Source: Flavihumibacter fluvii
GTDB taxonomy: Bacteria; Bacteroidota; Bacteroidia; Chitinophagales; Chitinophagaceae
NCBI RefSeq assembly: GCF_018595675.2
Contig: NZ_CP092333.1
Location: 1,512,001-1,576,000 of the forward strand
DNA length: 64,000 nt
Direction of reading: 5' to 3'
Shown: positions 19,952 through 27,333 of the stretch, piece after piece
Position numbering within the stretch: the stretch's first letter is position 1
Layout: each line of letters begins with the position of its first letter
Position numbers and translations under genes: made by a program
The notes under the pieces: model-generated
What the model was told of the DNA's origin: nothing
The model's database searches: none
What the model saw: the letters and a program-made list of their open reading frames with translations, nothing else

Positions 19952-20794
19952 ATGAGGATCCTTCTTTTTTTAGCTGCTTTAATGGTTACGCTGGTTGGAT
20001 ATTCCCAGGACCTGAATGGTATTTGGCGTGGAACGCTTACCCAGGAAGCCGGCGGCTGTTTTCCAACTTACCACCTCGAGATCCAAATGACTGTAAACGG
20101 GACTAACCTTACCGGTGCAGCATACGATTACTATGACCAAAGCAGGTATGTGAAACACCATTTCAATGGGCGTTATAACACGCAAACCAAGCGTATGGTC
20201 ATTATTGAGGATCGGTTGCTGCAGGTTAATATCCCTGGTGATTGTGTATCCTGCACTAAAACCTATGACCTTACCTGGTCGATGGAAAACGGGAAGGAAG
20301 TTTTGCTTGGCGATTGGAAAGGAATTGAATCGATCAGCAGGAAACCTTGTCCGCCAGGGAAAATCACGCTTTACCGGGTACCCAAAACCGATTTTCCTGT
20401 AGATATAGAACAACCCGAAGAACTGGCAAAACTGCAAAGCGGACTAACCCTGCAAAACCGCGAAACTGAATTGGTCACTACACTCTCCCTGGAAACACCA
20501 GAGATCAAAATAGATCTGTATGATAATGCAGAAATTGATAATGATACGGTCACCATTTTCCTGAATAATAAATTGTTGTTATACAAACAACGACTCACCG
20601 ATAAGCCGTTAACCCTTCGGTTGCAGGCATTCCCCAATACAGATTATGAACTGGTGATGTATGCCGATAACCTGGGCAGTATTCCGCCGAACACTGCCTT
20701 AATGGTGGTCACAGCCGGCAAGCAGAAACAGGAAGTAAGGCTGGCCGCTTCAGATAAGAAAAATGCTGCGGTCCGGTTTAGGCTGAAAGAGTAA
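19952..20794 (+). CDS. Secreted protein of unknown function, short-linker paralogue
   Basis: A 280-residue exported protein (signal peptide MRILLFLAALMVTLVGYSQ) homologous over both ends to the preceding gene: DLNGIWRGTL at the N-terminus, and LYDNAEIDNDTVTIFLNNK plus LGSIPPNTALMVV in the C-terminal domain. The proline-rich linker is almost absent. The N-terminal domain carries extra cysteines (GDCVSCTKTY) that could form disulfides. The pair probably arose by duplication and shares a transcript. Its 3' end overlaps the convergent PIN gene by 17 bases. Function unknown. Confidence 0.7.
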   Translation: MRILLFLAALMVTLVGYSQDLNGIWRGTLTQEAGGCFPTYHLEIQMTVNGTNLTGAAYDYYDQSRYVKHHFNGRYNTQTKRMVIIEDRLLQVNIPGDCVSCTKTYDLTWSMENGKEVLLGDWKGIESISRKPCPPGKITLYRVPKTDFPVDIEQPEELAKLQSGLTLQNRETELVTTLSLETPEIKIDLYDNAEIDNDTVTIFLNNKLLLYKQRLTDKPLTLRLQAFPNTDYELVMYADNLGSIPPNTALMVVTAGKQKQEVRLAASDKKNAAVRFRLKE

Positions 20795-21194
20795 GTTTCA
20801 GGAATTCATCCGGGGTATACACGGGTAAAGAGGGAATAGCATCTTTCAATAATGATTTATCCCGACTGATAAAATAATCTAATTTAAGTTGAATGGCCGT
20901 ATAATATTGAAGCGCATCTTCAATATCCCTGATTTTAGAATGTAATGCTATCACTGTTATTTCATGGTTTGTATCAATTACCTTAATGTCTGCCCGCAAG
21001 CTCAGCAGTAATTCTTTTGCCTTAGCATTACCGTAGGCTTTCGCCAACCAGTACCCCAGGATATGAACAATGGAAGGAGTAATAAAAGCCTGTACCTCTC
21101 GCTGTAATACCAGTTCTATGATTTTTTTTGAAATAGGATACGACTCCCGTTTAAGTGTAATATCTAATAAAATATTTGCGTCCAGGAATACCTT
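20778..21194 (-). pseudogene. Orphan PIN-domain (VapC-like) ribonuclease gene lacking a start codon
   Basis: An open frame of about 139 codons encodes a full PIN domain: VFLDANILLDITLKR with the first catalytic Asp, then IRDIEDALQYYTAI and a terminal FISRDKS...VYTPDEFL. PIN toxins cleave RNA. No ATG, GTG or TTG precedes the catalytic Asp; the frame begins after a TAG at 21201-21203. The codons before the conserved KVFLDAN are GCT TAT; adding one G (TTATGAAG instead of TTATAAG) would restore an ATG at the place where relatives start. The only conventional start, a TTG at 21047, would remove the catalytic Asp. No antitoxin gene is next to it. It may be a decayed toxin gene, use a nonstandard start, or reflect a one-base error. 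Confidence 0.65.
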
Positions 21195-21215
21195 ATAAGC
21201 CTATAAGGGCTCAGT

Positions 21216-23288
21216 TTATTTTTTACCGGTACTACCTTCCCCGTTTTGAACAGGATAACCCCGCTGTGTCCATACCAATATTCCTTCATCCAGGATGGCG
21301 GTATGTTTATAGCCAAACCGTTTCAGGGTATTTACGACCTGGTTTGATGCGGCATGTGGACAGGCGCAATACACAACGATCAGGGTACTGTCGTTAGGAA
21401 GATCCTTAATGAATTTGTCAGGCTCTTTATAATACGGCACAGAAACTGCACCCGGGATATGCGACTGGTGCCAGGCCGCTTCCGACCTGGCGTCGAGCAT
21501 GATCATACGCGAACTGTCTTTTAATGCTTTTGCCAGTTGTGCAGCAGGCACGTAAAGGTCTTGCCGCAGGGTAAATTTTGGCGCCTTGTTATTTGGATGG
21601 ATGATATAATCCTTGGGCAGCGGATGTTTTACGGCAACTGCAGCGGGGGCATTCCATCCTGAAGCGCGGCTTCGGAGGAAGGCCGTGATCGCATTTATTT
21701 CCTGCTTGCTGAGACTGTCTTTGAAAGAAGGCATAGCCGTACTATCCCGGCCTTCAGAAATGGTATACCGCAAGAAATCATCGCTTGCCGTAGCCAGCAG
21801 GATAGGATTCCCCAGCGCAGGCGCACGGATGCCCTCTCCTTTTTTGCCATGGCAGGATGCGCAGTGTCTGGCATATAAAGTATTGCCGAGCGCTATATTC
21901 CCGGTGACCGGTTTTATCGACATTTCGATCGGCTTTTTCACGCCGCTTAATTCGTGCAGCCAATGTATTAATAATTCGATATCATCACCATCCAGTGGGC
22001 CGCCCTGGCTTTTCGCATAGGGTGCCATGGCTGTTCCAGTGCGTCCGTAGGTAATGGTATGGCTCAGGAAATTATAGCTGGATCTGGGCAATTGGGTGGT
22101 TGCCATCAGGGCATGGGAACGTAAGGATGGCGCAAAATCGGCTGCATTGCCCTCGCGGTTTTTACCATGGCATAAGGCACAGTATTTTACATAGATACCG
22201 GCTGCATGCCTGAGCGATGCTGTGTCGAGTTTCGTCCCTTCCTTGAAACTGTAAATCTTCGCCAGTGCCGCCTGCTCCTTTGATTCCTGCATGAATTCAA
22301 ATTGAACCCCGTGTGTATACTCCTTCAATACGATCAAACGTTTTGATATAGTATCACGCACCATTGCCTTTGCCGGTAATGTCTTTTTCAGGAACTCCTG
22401 TGTGGCTGAAAGGTTTTTTACTTCAAAGCCGATCGCATATACCCCGGGACCGCGTGCCTGTAAAAATCTACCCAGTTCATCGCCGGGTGTTTTGGGAGTG
22501 GCCAATTGCAATTTGTGGTTATGCGCCACTTTAAAAACCGCCGTACTGTCGGTTGCAGCCAGTTCCCACAACCCCATCTTTTTAAATTCTTTGCGTGCGG
22601 CATCCAGGTCTTTTACCACCACGCGCAATTCAGCGATACACAATACACCATTTGGATGCTCGTCGTAATACTTGCGCCAGGAGTAAGGCCTCCATTCGCT
22701 CTGTATTTCTTCATAGGGCATGCCCATAACTTCTAAAAATCCCGGCAGGTAGGCAGACGGGTTCGCGGTATTAAAAGCGATGCTTCGAAACTGAGGGCCG
22801 CCATCATCCCAGTCCCACCCCTTGGGCATTTCGGCCGTAATGCGGCCGGACTGTGGCGTATCGATTTTAAATCCCTGTGCATTGAGCCAGTTACGTGTTG
22901 AGTCCACCGAAGATGTGTACAAAGAATAGACCCGCAGGCCTTCAAATTGCTTTAGGTACGCATTGATAAAAGCAGGTCGTTGTTTTGCAGCGGGACCGCT
23001 ATCATCAACTGCTATCAGTTCAAGTGCAGAAAAGTCGGGAAAGCTAATCGCGGCGCTACGAGTACCGGCATACATGCCCTGCTGGAATTTATCGGGCATC
23101 TTGAAGCCGAGCACTTTAGCGAAATATTTACTGGTGCTGTCCAGGTCTTTCACGATCAGCGTCGTAGCGCTAATGCCAAATCCCGCGCCTAGTAGCGGGT
23201 TGATTGCAGGTTCTTTGTCCACCCTGTCAGCGCAGGACGCAATAAAAACAACAAGCAAGAGTCCTGCCACATGAAAGGATGCTTTCAC
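21216..23288 (-). CDS. Lipoprotein fusing VOC, two cytochrome c and rhodanese domains
   Basis: A 690-residue lipoprotein with lipobox FIASC (Cys19). Domains in order: VOC/glyoxalase-like modules (about 38-335, with repeated starts TTLIVKDLD and RVVVKDLD), a first c-type cytochrome with heme motif CALCH (370-374) and likely Met421 ligand, a second with CASCH (476-480) and Met519, and a C-terminal rhodanese domain (about 578-682) with LDARSEAAW and a Cys641 loop reading CACPHAAS. It is expected on the periplasmic side as an electron-transfer protein. The start is a GTG; no ATG lies in frame between it and the lipobox. I do not know an established family with this domain order. The substrate and partner are unknown. 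Confidence 0.85.
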   Translation of the reverse strand: MKASFHVAGLLLVVFIASCADRVDKEPAINPLLGAGFGISATTLIVKDLDSTSKYFAKVLGFKMPDKFQQGMYAGTRSAAISFPDFSALELIAVDDSGPAAKQRPAFINAYLKQFEGLRVYSLYTSSVDSTRNWLNAQGFKIDTPQSGRITAEMPKGWDWDDGGPQFRSIAFNTANPSAYLPGFLEVMGMPYEEIQSEWRPYSWRKYYDEHPNGVLCIAELRVVVKDLDAARKEFKKMGLWELAATDSTAVFKVAHNHKLQLATPKTPGDELGRFLQARGPGVYAIGFEVKNLSATQEFLKKTLPAKAMVRDTISKRLIVLKEYTHGVQFEFMQESKEQAALAKIYSFKEGTKLDTASLRHAAGIYVKYCALCHGKNREGNAADFAPSLRSHALMATTQLPRSSYNFLSHTITYGRTGTAMAPYAKSQGGPLDGDDIELLIHWLHELSGVKKPIEMSIKPVTGNIALGNTLYARHCASCHGKKGEGIRAPALGNPILLATASDDFLRYTISEGRDSTAMPSFKDSLSKQEINAITAFLRSRASGWNAPAAVAVKHPLPKDYIIHPNNKAPKFTLRQDLYVPAAQLAKALKDSSRMIMLDARSEAAWHQSHIPGAVSVPYYKEPDKFIKDLPNDSTLIVVYCACPHAASNQVVNTLKRFGYKHTAILDEGILVWTQRGYPVQNGEGSTGKK

Positions 23289-23572
23289 GGTTCCTGGGTT
23301 TATGGGTATTAAATTGGGGTATTAAACAATTTAATGGAAAAAATGAATTCCAGGAATAAAGCGTCAAAATTAAATTTGAAAGCGTTTGGGGATGTTCGTT
23401 GAAGGAAGGAAGGCAACTTTTGCCCTCTGAAAAGTCTTTCATTCCTTCGATATCGAAAACGATTTGGCCTGGAATAAAATATCCAGAAAATACTTAAACA
23501 ATAATATTTGCACTAATAATAAAAAGTATGAGAGTCATACTGTTTATGTTTTGATCTTACCTAACCTATTTT

Positions 23573-24271
23573 TCACACCTCAGATTGTTCTACTAATGGC
23601 CGAATCCCAAATAACAACAGATAGCCGATCATCCAGAATTCCCCAATAGTTGCCGGAATTACTATATATTCCAACCAGGGATTCACGAATCCGCTATATG
23701 TTGCAAATGTGCTCAGGATATAACCAATACCACCTAAGATCAGGAAGCGACCTAACCATACAGGCATTCTTTTTGACAAAACGACCATATAGCCCATCGG
23801 TAAAAGCCAAAGACCAAAAAACAGGCCACCAGCTCCCCACGAATGTTTGATGAGCTGTCCCAGGAGTTGGATCGATACAATTTTATCGTCCTTAGGCAAG
23901 TTGGAAGATATGGCAATTTCAATGGCAGAACCCATGGAAATTGCACTAAGCAGTATTGCTGCAGCGTTCATCATCCCCCATACCCCTAAAGCCCAGGCGC
24001 CCCAATCACTGACAGGTTTAAACAGTTTATAGAACCAAACAGCCGCAAGCGCCTGCGATAGAATTATGGCAAATTCCAGCAGAAGCCTGATCCTGGCGAG
24101 GGTAACATGCATGGTCAAATTTGCCAGCGTTTTTTCCGGATCGGCTGATATATAAATCTTCGGGTGTAATAGCAAAAAACCCACCATTCCGGAAATTGCC
24201 AGGACCAGGTACCATACTCCTGTAATTCTTGCAGTGGTTAATGATTGTTTTTGCGCACTGGTTGATGTCAT
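23573..24271 (-). CDS. DUF4386 integral membrane protein
   Basis: A 232-residue protein with about six hydrophobic transmembrane segments. The opening TTARITGVWYLVLAISGMVGFLLLHPKIYI and the later GLFFGLWLLPMGYMVVLSKRMPVWLGRFLILGGIGYIL are characteristic of DUF4386, a membrane family of unknown function. It is a single gene; about 280 bases to the left separate it from the VOC/cytochrome gene, and to its right lies the long noncoding region with the 11-bp array. Confidence 0.85.
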   Translation of the reverse strand: MTSTSAQKQSLTTARITGVWYLVLAISGMVGFLLLHPKIYISADPEKTLANLTMHVTLARIRLLLEFAIILSQALAAVWFYKLFKPVSDWGAWALGVWGMMNAAAILLSAISMGSAIEIAISSNLPKDDKIVSIQLLGQLIKHSWGAGGLFFGLWLLPMGYMVVLSKRMPVWLGRFLILGGIGYILSTFATYSGFVNPWLEYIVIPATIGEFWMIGYLLLFGIRPLVEQSEV

Positions 24272-24466
24272 AATATTTTTCTTTTAGTATAGCGCTCTCC
24301 ACAACGCTTTCGCCGGATCGAATATAAAATTCTTTGAGGGATGCATCAAAGCCTGCGACTGTTGAAATACATTAATTCCTTCTTTTAGTATGTCCAACTA
24401 TTTTATTGGCTATCGAAATAAAAAGGTTTCCACAAACCATCGCCAGGCGACCGTAATTCCTGCCTA

Positions 24467-24530
24467 CCGCGGAAAATACTCCCGCGGCAGAAAATCAGCA
24501 CTTGCAAAGCCTTTTCAACTCATTTGCAAG
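24467..24530. repeat. Two stem-loops ahead of the 11-bp array
   Basis: The first pairs two CCGCGG boxes (24467-24472 and 24482-24487) around 9 bases. The second has perfect 8-base arms CTTGCAAA (24501-24508) and TTTGCAAG (24523-24530) around 14 bases. They lie directly before the tandem array in a stretch with no gene. The rest of 24272-24466 shows nothing I can interpret. Confidence 0.45.
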
Positions 24531-24539
24531 GCATCATTT

Positions 24540-24660
24540 ACCGTTCTATAACCGTTCTATATTCGTTCTAATACCGTTATTAAACCGTTTTATAACGGAA
24601 AATGAACGGTTAGAAAACGTTATCAGAACAGTTTTAAAACGGTAGATTATAGGTTGAATC
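24540..24660. repeat. Tandem array of about ten 11-bp units (ACCGTTnTATA-like)
   Basis: The stretch divides without a gap into 11-base units that begin AC and mostly continue CGTT or GGTT: ACCGTTCTATA twice, then TTCGTTCTAAT, ACCGTTATTAA, ACCGTTTTATA, ACGGAAAATGA, ACGGTTAGAAA, ACGTTATCAGA, ACAGTTTTAAA, ACGGTAGATTA, and possibly TAGGTTGAATC. The left units are nearly identical and the right ones drift, but the 11-base phase holds for 110 bases. Since 11 bp is close to one helical turn, all units face the same side of the DNA, as expected for cooperative protein binding. The array ends about 50 bases before a 49-codon ORF and abuts a weak promoter-like sequence. It is not CRISPR, because no spacers are present. 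Confidence 0.8.
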
Positions 24661-24682
24661 TGCGTAGAATTCCCTATCTTAA
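24653..24682 (+). promoter_or_regulatory. Weak promoter-like sequence after the 11-bp array
   Basis: TTG (24654-24656) is followed after 18 bases by TATCTTAA (24675-24682), a partial match to TAnnTTTG. It lies between the array and the small ORF at 24701. A weak core promoter downstream of phased sites would suit an activated promoter; this is inference. Confidence 0.3.
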
Positions 24683-24700
24683 GTAGACAAACCCTTCACT

Positions 24701-24850
24701 ATGGCTATTAATACCAACACCGGCAATGCCTTCGCAGGCTTCTCTGGTAAATTGAACGGCGTGTATACCACCCTCATCAGTGACTTCATGAAGAATAACG
24801 GGGACACCAATAAGACGCTGAAAATCCCTAACAAACCGAAGAGCAAATAA
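24701..24850 (+). CDS. Small ORF of 49 residues downstream of the 11-bp array
   Basis: ATG to TAA encodes 49 residues beginning MAINTNTGNAFAGFSGKLNG and ending in a lysine/proline-rich tail (KIPNKPKSK). It is predicted soluble, with no signal peptide or membrane segment. I recognise no family. Support for it being real comes from context: it starts about 50 bases after the array and a promoter-like sequence, and its stop is followed immediately by a perfect hairpin. It is too short for codon statistics to decide. It could also be the 5' fragment of a lost gene or a fortuitous frame. Confidence 0.45.
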   Translation: MAINTNTGNAFAGFSGKLNGVYTTLISDFMKNNGDTNKTLKIPNKPKSK

Positions 24851-24866
24851 GGCCTGCAAACAGGCC
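24851..24866. terminator. Hairpin between the small ORF and the TonB receptor gene
   Basis: GGCCTG-CAAA-CAGGCC is a perfect 6-bp stem directly after the small ORF stop and 4 bases from the convergent TonB receptor stop. The T-tract is weak on both strands (TTATTT on the minus strand), so terminator activity is uncertain. Confidence 0.4.
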
Positions 24867-24870
24867 GGGA

Positions 24871-27255
24871 TCAAAACTTAAAGTTCCAGGTCACACTCGG
24901 AATAATCGGGAACAGCGACACCTGTTTGGCTTCAACTTTTAATGTTCCTTCATTAGCGCTGCCTGTCTGGTCGTAATAGATGAAATATGGGTTCAGGCGG
25001 CTGTACACATTGTATATACTGAACACCCAACTGCTTTTGACTTTACGGGGCTTTTTCTGCACGGGTGTGTAAATAGCAGATAAATCAAGGCGGTGATAGG
25101 GCTCCAAACGATATTGGTTAATTCGGCTATACTCCTGGGTGAGTACCCCACTGATGAAATAAAACCGCTCTGGTAAAGTTGTGGCGCTTCCGGTACCATA
25201 CACAAAAACCCCCGATAGTTTCCATTTCTTGTTCAATTCATAGGTGCCCACTACGGAAATATCATGCCGCCGGTCATACCTGGCCTTGTATTTCTCATTG
25301 TTGTTGAGGTCGGGAAATTTGCGCCAGGTCCAGCTCAGCGTATATCCCACCCAACCTGTAAACCGGCCGGTATTCTTACGCACAAAAAATTCCGCACCAT
25401 AACTCCAGCCATTCCCAAATACAAATTCTTCTTCCGGATCTTTTAAAGAAGGCGTATATCCTTCCCGGTATTCGATCTGGTTCTGCATTTGCTTATAATA
25501 CAGTTCAACAGATGTTTCGTATTTATTATCCTTCAGGTTCTTGAAAAATCCAGCTGCGTATTGCCAGCTTAACTGTGGCCGGACCCGTAGTGTACTGGGT
25601 ACCCACAGGTCGGTTGGCAATGTAGATCCGGCATTGCTCACCAGGTGGATATACTGGTAATTCCTGGTCACCGAAGCTTTGATGGAAGTGGCATCATTTA
25701 TACTAAAACGCATAGTCAGCCGTGGTTCCAGCCCACCGTATTGCTGCACTTTTTTTCCGCTACCGTAAACAATACTATCCAGTTTATTGCCATTCTGGTC
25801 GCGTTCATATTGTGTAAACGGGCCCACCTGGGTAAAGCCGCTATACCGCAAGCCGGCACTCACCTGGAATTTATCGGAAACCTCCCAGTCATCCTGCAGG
25901 TACAATCCGACTTCATTTGCATATTTTTTCTGCGCATTATTTGGGGTGAAATCAATTGAATCTGTCCGCCCGGAAACAAGGTTGGGCTTAAAAGTATGGT
26001 AGGTGTATTGCAATCCCCAGCGCATTTTATGCTGCGGATTTGGATAATAATCCATATCAAATTTCGCGGTCAGGTCCTTAATACCTGAGCTGACATTAAA
26101 GGCCAGGTTATTCTGTACAGCGTTGAAGGCAAAATTGTAGTCATTAAAGACCAGTGTGGTATTGGAAAAGAGTTTCTTGTGAAACAGGTGGTTCCAGCGT
26201 ACGGTTGCGGTGGCATTTCCCCAGGGAATGTTTGCACTGAAAGCGCGTTGGTTGTTATTGAAATCAAATACATCCCGGCCAAAATACCCACTCAGGTAGA
26301 GCCGGTCCTTGTCGGAGAACTTATAATTCACCTTGGTATTAAGGTCGTAAAAATAATATCCGGATCCATAGAATGAACTGCTTTTGGGAACAAAGGGTTT
26401 AACCAGCGCATCAATATAGGTGCGCCGTGCCGAAACAATAAAGGAAGCTTTGTCTTTTTTGATTGGCCCCTGGATAGACAGCCTGGAAGCGATCAGCCCG
26501 ATCCCCCCTTCCACCTCAATTTTCTTGAGGTTACCGTCTTTCATCGCAATATCCAGCACGGAAGAAAGCCGGCCGCCATACTGGGCCGGCATCCCGCCTT
26601 TAATGAGGCTTACGTTCTTGATGGCATCGGAATTAAAAATGGAAAAGAAACCAAAAAGATGGCCTGTATTATACACCACGGCATCATCCAGCATGATCAG
26701 GTTCTGGTCGGGACCGCCGCCACGGACATAAAATCCGGCGTTACCTTCACCGGCATTGCGCACACCGGGTAGTAATTGCAGGGTTTTAAGGATATCCACC
26801 TCTCCAAACAGGACCGGAAGGGACTTCACCTGGCTGATACTGAGGTCGATCTTACCCATCTGGGCATTGCGAACATTACCATCCTTTCTTTTTGCATAAA
26901 CCACCACCTCTTCATTGGTAGTTATTTTTGGTGAAAGCACCTGGTTCCGCTGAACATCACGGTCAAGTTCAAGCGTAAACCGGAGTGTTTCATAGCCGGT
27001 ATAGGAAATGGTTATATCATAACGGTCACGGGGAAGGGTAATTGAAAAAAAACCATAGGTATTGCTGTTCACCCCCTTGCCTTTACCGTTTATGGCTACA
27101 GAGGCGCCGATCAGGTTTTCCCCGGATAAGGAATCTTTAACATATCCGCTGAAAGTGAATTTTTGCTGGGCGGATGCCGGAAAACTCATCAAAATGCCCA
27201 AAAGAAGGGGGAAAAAAGCGAAAAATAGATGATTCTTATTCCTGTTTTTATGCAT
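24871..27255 (-). CDS. TonB-dependent outer-membrane receptor
   Basis: A 794-residue outer-membrane receptor. A signal peptide (about 1-30) is followed by a carboxypeptidase-regulatory-like domain (FTFSGYVKDSLSGENLIGASV, then YGFFSITLPRDRYDITISYTGYE), a plug domain with LKTLQLLPGVRNAGEGNAGFYVRGGGPDQNLIMLDDAVVYN, and a 22-strand-type barrel ending in an aromatic TWNFKF. It takes up an unknown ligand by TonB-driven transport. No SusD partner is adjacent, so this is not a standard polysaccharide-utilisation pair. I chose the ATG at 27255, which gives a normal signal peptide; a start at 27327 would not. It is divergent from the ABC-F gene. Confidence 0.92.
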   Translation of the reverse strand: MHKNRNKNHLFFAFFPLLLGILMSFPASAQQKFTFSGYVKDSLSGENLIGASVAINGKGKGVNSNTYGFFSITLPRDRYDITISYTGYETLRFTLELDRDVQRNQVLSPKITTNEEVVVYAKRKDGNVRNAQMGKIDLSISQVKSLPVLFGEVDILKTLQLLPGVRNAGEGNAGFYVRGGGPDQNLIMLDDAVVYNTGHLFGFFSIFNSDAIKNVSLIKGGMPAQYGGRLSSVLDIAMKDGNLKKIEVEGGIGLIASRLSIQGPIKKDKASFIVSARRTYIDALVKPFVPKSSSFYGSGYYFYDLNTKVNYKFSDKDRLYLSGYFGRDVFDFNNNQRAFSANIPWGNATATVRWNHLFHKKLFSNTTLVFNDYNFAFNAVQNNLAFNVSSGIKDLTAKFDMDYYPNPQHKMRWGLQYTYHTFKPNLVSGRTDSIDFTPNNAQKKYANEVGLYLQDDWEVSDKFQVSAGLRYSGFTQVGPFTQYERDQNGNKLDSIVYGSGKKVQQYGGLEPRLTMRFSINDATSIKASVTRNYQYIHLVSNAGSTLPTDLWVPSTLRVRPQLSWQYAAGFFKNLKDNKYETSVELYYKQMQNQIEYREGYTPSLKDPEEEFVFGNGWSYGAEFFVRKNTGRFTGWVGYTLSWTWRKFPDLNNNEKYKARYDRRHDISVVGTYELNKKWKLSGVFVYGTGSATTLPERFYFISGVLTQEYSRINQYRLEPYHRLDLSAIYTPVQKKPRKVKSSWVFSIYNVYSRLNPYFIYYDQTGSANEGTLKVEAKQVSLFPIIPSVTWNFKF

Positions 27256-27333
27256 GTGCCCGTGAAATTCGGGTTTTATAACAAAAACAACACACCAAGG
27301 TTTAGAATTCAATGCCCAATGATCCATTTAATT

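Follow-up and report, generated by a model that had tools for sequence, protein, structure and literature searches.

A phased 11-bp repeat array in Flavihumibacter fluvii and its most likely place in a large family of small basic protein genes of Chitinophagaceae

Layout of the array and the surrounding genes

The window analyzed here is a stretch of 64,000 nucleotides of Flavihumibacter fluvii (NCBI RefSeq assembly GCF_018595675.2, contig NZ_CP092333.1, positions 1,512,001 to 1,576,000 of the forward strand), and coordinates refer to this window unless another locus or a genome position is named. A repeat array, a putative promoter element, a 49-codon open reading frame (ORF) and a hairpin follow one another on it as listed below.

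24527-24536, + strand: left flank CAAGGCATCA (read directly)
24540-24594, + strand: left half of the array, five 11-bp units ACCGTTnnnnn (Tandem Repeats Finder and core count)
24594-24643, - strand: right half of the array, five inverted units, seen on the + strand as AACGGT cores every 11 bp (core count)
24667-24683, + strand: GAATTCCCTATCTTAAG, Bacteroidota -7-like element, putative promoter (sequence comparison)
24701-24850, + strand: 49-codon ORF, small basic family member that lacks about 64 internal codons, lost in frame (paralogue comparison)
24851-24866, + strand: hairpin GGCCTG....CAGGCC, immediately 3' of the stop codon (read directly)

The array (24540-24643) consists of ten 11-bp units arranged 5 + 5 around a dyad near 24594. 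The left-half units start at 24540, 24551, 24562, 24573 and 24584 and match the core ACCGTT at 28 of 30 positions, in agreement with the preliminary description, in which the first five units are close copies. The last five units had been called degraded; they are instead the reverse complement of the ACCGTT word, with AACGGT-like cores at 24594, 24605, 24616, 24627 and 24638 that match at 27 of 30 positions. The reported exact division into 11-base units without a slip holds for the steps within each half but not for the center, where a 10-bp step lies one base off the 11-bp grid. Tandem Repeats Finder placed 24540-24596 (period 11, score 58) at the top of its 10 rows for the window, with the second row at 57, and the best lag-11 score over 44 positions was 32 at the array compared to 23 elsewhere in the window and no more than 26 in any of 60 simulated 64-kb windows. 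Rfam gave one weak match here, to a microRNA precursor family (22.6 bits, cut-off 140, E 0.19), which was dismissed as the palindrome itself. The letters of the left flank CAAGGCATCA recur at locus L169 of the same genome, where they form both ends of the inverted repeat enclosing an array that has no gene. The element GAATTCCCTATCTTAAG, for which sequence comparison suggests a promoter role, is common, whole or in part, to the Flavihumibacter copies L002, L036, L071 and L072. The ORF and the downstream hairpin were both present as first described, the hairpin resembling a terminator but lacking a clear T run.

The array and the ORF lie within a segment of about 4 kb (20795-24870) between a gene of 280 residues (19952-20794) and a TonB-type gene (24871-27327). 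This segment also holds a 690-residue ORF (21216-23288) with two CxxCH haem motifs (CALCH and CASCH) and, by eye, an uncommon mix of domains. The array was absent from this site in all 11 relatives that could be judged, with the site of a twelfth obscured by N; the high lag-11 value of L162 is a run of N. In five of these relatives the TonB-type gene is directly followed by a putative homologue of the 280-residue gene, and since the two are direct neighbors there, about 4 kb including the array and its ORF was either gained in F. fluvii or lost in those relatives.

The open reading frame and its protein family

Two blocks of the window ORF matched further loci of this genome and are the counterparts of residues 1-20 and 85-112 of an intact 112-residue paralogue (genome positions 3349626-3349961) whose array has the same word as the window array. 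The 49-residue ORF had been proposed as the regulated unit in its own right, and this comparison identifies it as an internally deleted member. Between the window ORF and the intact paralogue synonymous sites were saturated while dN was 0.18, indicating that the retained residues have long been under selection. With its middle part missing, the window protein is probably unable to bind DNA, and the intact paralogue may still occupy the window array.

Related proteins were found in the family Chitinophagaceae, and the small ORF does belong to a conserved family. A profile of four members had matches in 51 of 294 Chitinophagaceae genomes (E 0.01 or better), and one of 45 members in 65 of 394 (E 1e-10). 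In wider draws, the 45-member profile matched 6 of 295 genomes of the class (E 1e-6) and 27 of 296 genomes of the phylum (E 1e-3). The short members are basic, with a mean pI of about 10, whether or not an array was detected beside them, and charge therefore does not separate array-less short members from array-bearing ones. Pfam, PHROGs, NCBIfam and PADLOC gave no convincing family for the short proteins, profile searches recognized no known DNA-binding domain in the common domain, and the best match in a sequence search of the PDB reached only E 0.27. An AlphaFold2 model built from two sequences had very low confidence (pLDDT 46) and its fold was uninformative. The window array and ORF are most likely one cassette of a large undescribed family of basic proteins of about 100 residues.

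Long members of the family add varied C-terminal parts to the common domain. The C-terminal part of L043 is a nucleotidyltransferase (PF01909, E 2e-6); this fusion (L043:1156-1788) resembles MntA antitoxins, with a match below the cut-off of that family. In L086, L098, L105, L107 and L108 the C-terminal stretch reads by eye like a winged helix, with weak matches in the three that were scanned, and some other long members end in an Ig-like region (weak match). Among the latter, L083, L087, L092, L104 and partly L102 have a common leader, GGAGTTT.CGCT.AGGG.TAACGGGAAGAGCG..., recognized by eye within 300 bp upstream, for which Rfam gave no match at gathering thresholds; the arrays of these five loci sit farther upstream than the leader.

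The family profile also reached two distant long relatives, L124 and L126, that match DUF6266 (PF19781) above the cut-off, the former with an array at threshold and the latter with none. These two are the only family relatives that match DUF6266: the window ORF and its paralogues gave no match to it, and it was not among the 25 of 29 families listed for the 45 short members. The PF19781 entry assigns no function, and no paper naming DUF6266 was found among open-licence papers.

Recurrence of 11-bp arrays at family genes

An array was scored as present where the lag-11 score reached at least 26 over 44 positions. The first set of loci was made up of the 30 best loci of the four-member profile, 40 places further down its list, loci from earlier searches and 30 loci of the phylum search, with the window locus and the frameshifted copy L036 added by hand. 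Loci were dropped for having no in-frame start codon (L007, L051, L076, L096), by score (L082), as repeats of the same place, as repeats of other rows (L113, L116, L140) or for too little upstream sequence (L085).

Of the 97 family loci, 62 (the window and one decayed copy counted) had a lag-11 array in the 300 bp upstream of the gene, although these loci are not independent as the sampled genomes share genera. At the same threshold no array was found in 75 upstream regions of other mechanical ORFs in the same loci, in 211 window tiles or in 485 shuffles. The expectation that such arrays recur before small ORFs in Chitinophagaceae was supported, as was the earlier view of phased sites resembling protein-binding sites. 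In total 69 of 97 loci had an array within 600 bp upstream of the start, and 73 of 97 passed when 300 bp downstream were searched as well. Lag 11 was the best of lags 5-30 (22 excluded) in 65 of 97 members, comprising 45 of 56 short and 20 of 41 long members; the near-identical L069 and L084 count as array-bearing even though their strongest period is 8. The words differ between loci, with CATCCTAGGGT, AACGAAGGATG, TTCTCCATTCA, AGCGGGATATG, ATACGCTTCAC and more found at other family genes. Of 102 arrays counted in the fetched DNA, 82 lay near a family ORF, counts that are inflated by overlapping loci.

The remaining 24 of 97 members had no array at threshold even in the wider stretch, and 7 of these 24 carry short AACGAAGGATG arrays. 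Among 11 below-threshold members checked for this word, 7 had a pair or trio of units at a distance of exactly 11 bp, 2 had one unit and 2 had none, compared to no AACGAAGGATG pair at this distance in the 64-kb window.

A second sample consisted of 36 listed places in 14 newly drawn genomes, taken from 50 matches tallied, and was scored over 500 bp upstream instead of 300; three places without a start codon (L228, L233, L246) were dropped. Arrays passed the threshold at 15 of 33 usable places compared to 1 of 62 control segments, and the single passing control, in L236, was itself a palindromic 11-bp array. That array has the word TCTTCCTCCGT and lies about 1.4 kb from the family gene of L236, away from any family ORF found there. 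By length, 5 of 18 short and 10 of 15 long members passed. Six short members of the genus g7 (genomes G900 and G923) had upstream scores below 26. Of ten second-sample loci checked for AACGAAGGATG, five more had pairs of this word 11 bp apart.

The arrays varied in their anatomy. The Flavihumibacter arrays of the ACCGTT word are palindromic, with up to five units a side, while other arrays are direct only. Period-10 arrays were found at L107 (by eye), L108 and L109, for example ACGTAGGAT, and at L107 and L108 the period-10 array stands behind a period-11 array of another word. Four loci, L111, L114, L115 and L142, have their array past the stop codon and not before the start; that of L142 precedes the next ORF and could belong to that gene. 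Between array and start codon, the best match to TAnnTTTG, a scan based on the Bacteroidota promoter consensus (PMC7366714), was 4.45 of 6 compared to 4.30 in shuffles, with at least five matches in 45% compared to 35%, which is no clear enrichment.

No gene family recurred as a neighbor in more than three loci, in fetched flanks of uneven length, and a same-strand ORF started within 60 bp of the family stop codon at 5 of 52 loci. The family gene mostly stands alone, without a recurrent partner. With regard to tRNA-linked insertion, genes for tRNA were present at 3 of 49 loci (an uncontrolled count).

Coupling of array word and protein

Twelve of the 15 family loci in the genome of F. fluvii carry arrays, whose words fell into ten groups at the 99th percentile of the permuted null and into eight at a looser cut; the three ACCGTT copies grouped together at both. 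Across 60 array-bearing members word similarity rose with protein identity (Mantel r 0.50, reached by 0 of 1000 permutations). Pairs from the same genome with less than 40% protein identity had mean word similarities of 4.77 (13 pairs) and 5.11 (16 pairs) compared to a permuted null of 4.59, and pairs from different genomes with more than 50% protein identity had a mean of 6.95. The array word follows the protein rather than the host genome.

Conservation was confined largely to the arrays. At 50-60% protein identity (31 pairs) the median z was 9.2 for arrays compared to 0.3 for the distal flank and 0.5 for the spacer before the start codon. The array median was still 2.8 at 40-50% identity (104 pairs), with 47% of pairs above 3 and flanks near 0.2, and rose to 10.7 at 60-85% identity (30 pairs), where 23% of flanks and 43% of spacers were also above 3. 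When the unit columns were permuted, the array signal of 72 pairs fell from 10.5 to 0.15, and there was none in 200 pairs of less than 25% identity (array z -0.2). The conservation of the arrays between random flanks thus reflects selection on the arrays themselves and not merely inheritance together with the DNA around them.

Proposed mechanism and alternative explanations

On balance, these sequence patterns make it probable that each family protein, through the common domain, binds the array beside its gene in a cooperative manner and thereby regulates that gene. The N-terminal domain of about 100 residues would bind its own 11-bp word, with one protomer per helical turn arranged cooperatively along one face of the DNA, and the bound array would repress, or otherwise set, the adjacent promoter of the family gene. 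The coupling of word and protein within single genomes, together with the lack of a recurrent partner, points to the family protein as the binder, the phasing of the units suggests cooperativity, and the position of the array upstream of the gene suggests autoregulation; the downstream arrays of L111, L114, L115 and L142 weaken this last reading. Other observations that speak against the model are the array-less members, the low share of short members passing in the second sample (5 of 18), the arrays with no gene beside them, the motif scan between array and start, the 47% of array pairs above 3 at 40-50% identity, and the lack of a recognized DNA-binding domain in the common domain. More tentatively, the family may represent a new DNA-binding domain with a fast-changing recognition code, in which each paralogue has a private word, a genome can hold about a dozen cassettes, each self-addressed by a word of its own, and array-only copies reflect words that have spread or survived in the absence of the gene.

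The arrays could instead be bound by another regulator of the host, such as a winged-helix protein of the OmpR/PhoB kind, with the family proteins as its regulated products. PhoP binds direct repeats of 7-bp motifs with 4-bp spacers, 11 bp in all, as cooperative tandem protomers (PMC4832192), and on this reading neither the downstream arrays nor the array-less members would call for self-binding. One genome, however, carries eight to ten different words, with those of paralogues in the same genome unlike and those of close homologues in other genomes alike. A separate regulator would therefore need eight to ten specificities per genome, or many regulators would have to follow the genes, yet no neighboring gene recurs, and we consider this explanation unlikely.

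A selfish or mobile cassette, whose array would serve in cis for spreading, maintenance or segregation and whose protein would act there to that end rather than for transcription, is the main alternative use of the same predicted binding. The genome of F. fluvii holds the frameshifted family copy L036 with a good array, and three more ACCGTT arrays without an intact family gene. The first of these (L169:1195-1330, at 345.8 kb) is a palindromic 5 + 5 array with long matching arms between convergent genes. The second (L170, at 1903.0 kb) has a related left flank, with any trace of a gene faint at best (score 32 compared to a best of 30 in 194 chance stretches), and the third (L171, at 3613.9 kb) is a half array with a piece of the left flank and no gene trace. 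These gene-less or near gene-less copies would fit such a cassette, as would the absence of the array from the window's site in the 11 judgeable relatives and the arrays that lie downstream of their gene. Against it, neither a catalytic domain nor a target-site duplication was found, nor, in an unsystematic search, any element ends, and single queries matched no plasmids, viral contigs or phage relatives. We regard this role as rather improbable.

It is very doubtful that the palindromic arrays act as RNA or DNA hairpins, as an attenuator or a cruciform, and not as protein sites. Six Flavihumibacter arrays do fold strongly (z -3.6 to -16.5, with RNA parameters and simple shuffles), and in L169, L072 and L036 the arms, read directly, match beyond the unit consensus. 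The direct-only arrays of L058, L063, L064, L112 and L122, in contrast, fold no better than shuffles and yet have the same period and gene family, so a hairpin is not a common feature of the arrays.

Short tandem repeats often arise by slippage, and a stronger period other than 11 was present in L069 and L084 (8 bp), L130 (16 bp) and L108 (10 bp), but an origin by slippage or chance was rejected as scarcely credible on the shuffles, the controls at other ORFs, which were near zero, the column permutation, the simulated windows and the second sample, as well as on lag 11 being the best in 65 of 97 members and on words conserved across genomes between random flanks.

Comparison with known systems

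Small proteins that bind short sites in series are familiar from the parC and parS systems (PMC9426499, PMC9499535). The preliminary description had likened the array to parC of plasmid R1, and the likeness stands for the DNA layout: R1 ParR/parC has 11-bp repeats, and both are short direct-repeat arrays beside genes. Repeats differ between such systems, and ParR does not bind foreign parC (PMC9426499). The analogy does not extend to the proteins or their partners. Visual inspection of the ORFs around the window array showed no ParM gene, as had been noted, and no partner such as ParM recurred beside the family, where no neighbor family occurred in more than three loci within the fetched flanks. 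No plasmid match was obtained (one query), and there was no convincing match suggesting a ribbon-helix-helix ParR in Pfam or in PDB sequences (best E 0.27), the model being of too low confidence for the fold to be judged.

The omega2/parS system of plasmid pSM19035 consists of heptad arrays in mixed orientation, and full stimulation of ParA takes four or more contiguous repeats (PMC9499535). As there, the words of the family arrays are short, unspaced, direct and inverted, with the window array 5 + 5 and those of relatives mixed or direct only. Unlike this plasmid system with its 7-bp words and ParA partner, the family has 11-bp words on chromosomal contigs; its loci had no recurrent neighbor family, and no sequence relation to omega2 was found. 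Compared to sites of the OmpR/PhoB type (PMC4832192), the arrays are longer and often centrally inverted, and unlike in OmpR/PhoB proteins no receiver or winged helix was recognized in the common domain.

A small protein with its own iterated site is thus of a known kind, while a multi-paralogue Bacteroidota family with private 11-bp words was not found described. The earlier statement that no system of this layout has been described in Bacteroidota agrees with a limited search of the open-licence literature, in which none was found. Even with another binder, the rule that links one Bacteroidota protein family to phased 11-bp arrays is new as far as was searched. If the family proteins bind the arrays, they would form an unrecognized DNA-binding family with tens of protein-word pairs laid out by evolution, and the pairing of protein and array would provide a natural table for reading the recognition code of the domain and then using it. 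This would explain a set of unannotated small genes of Chitinophagaceae and would give a lead on the function of the wider superfamily that reaches DUF6266.
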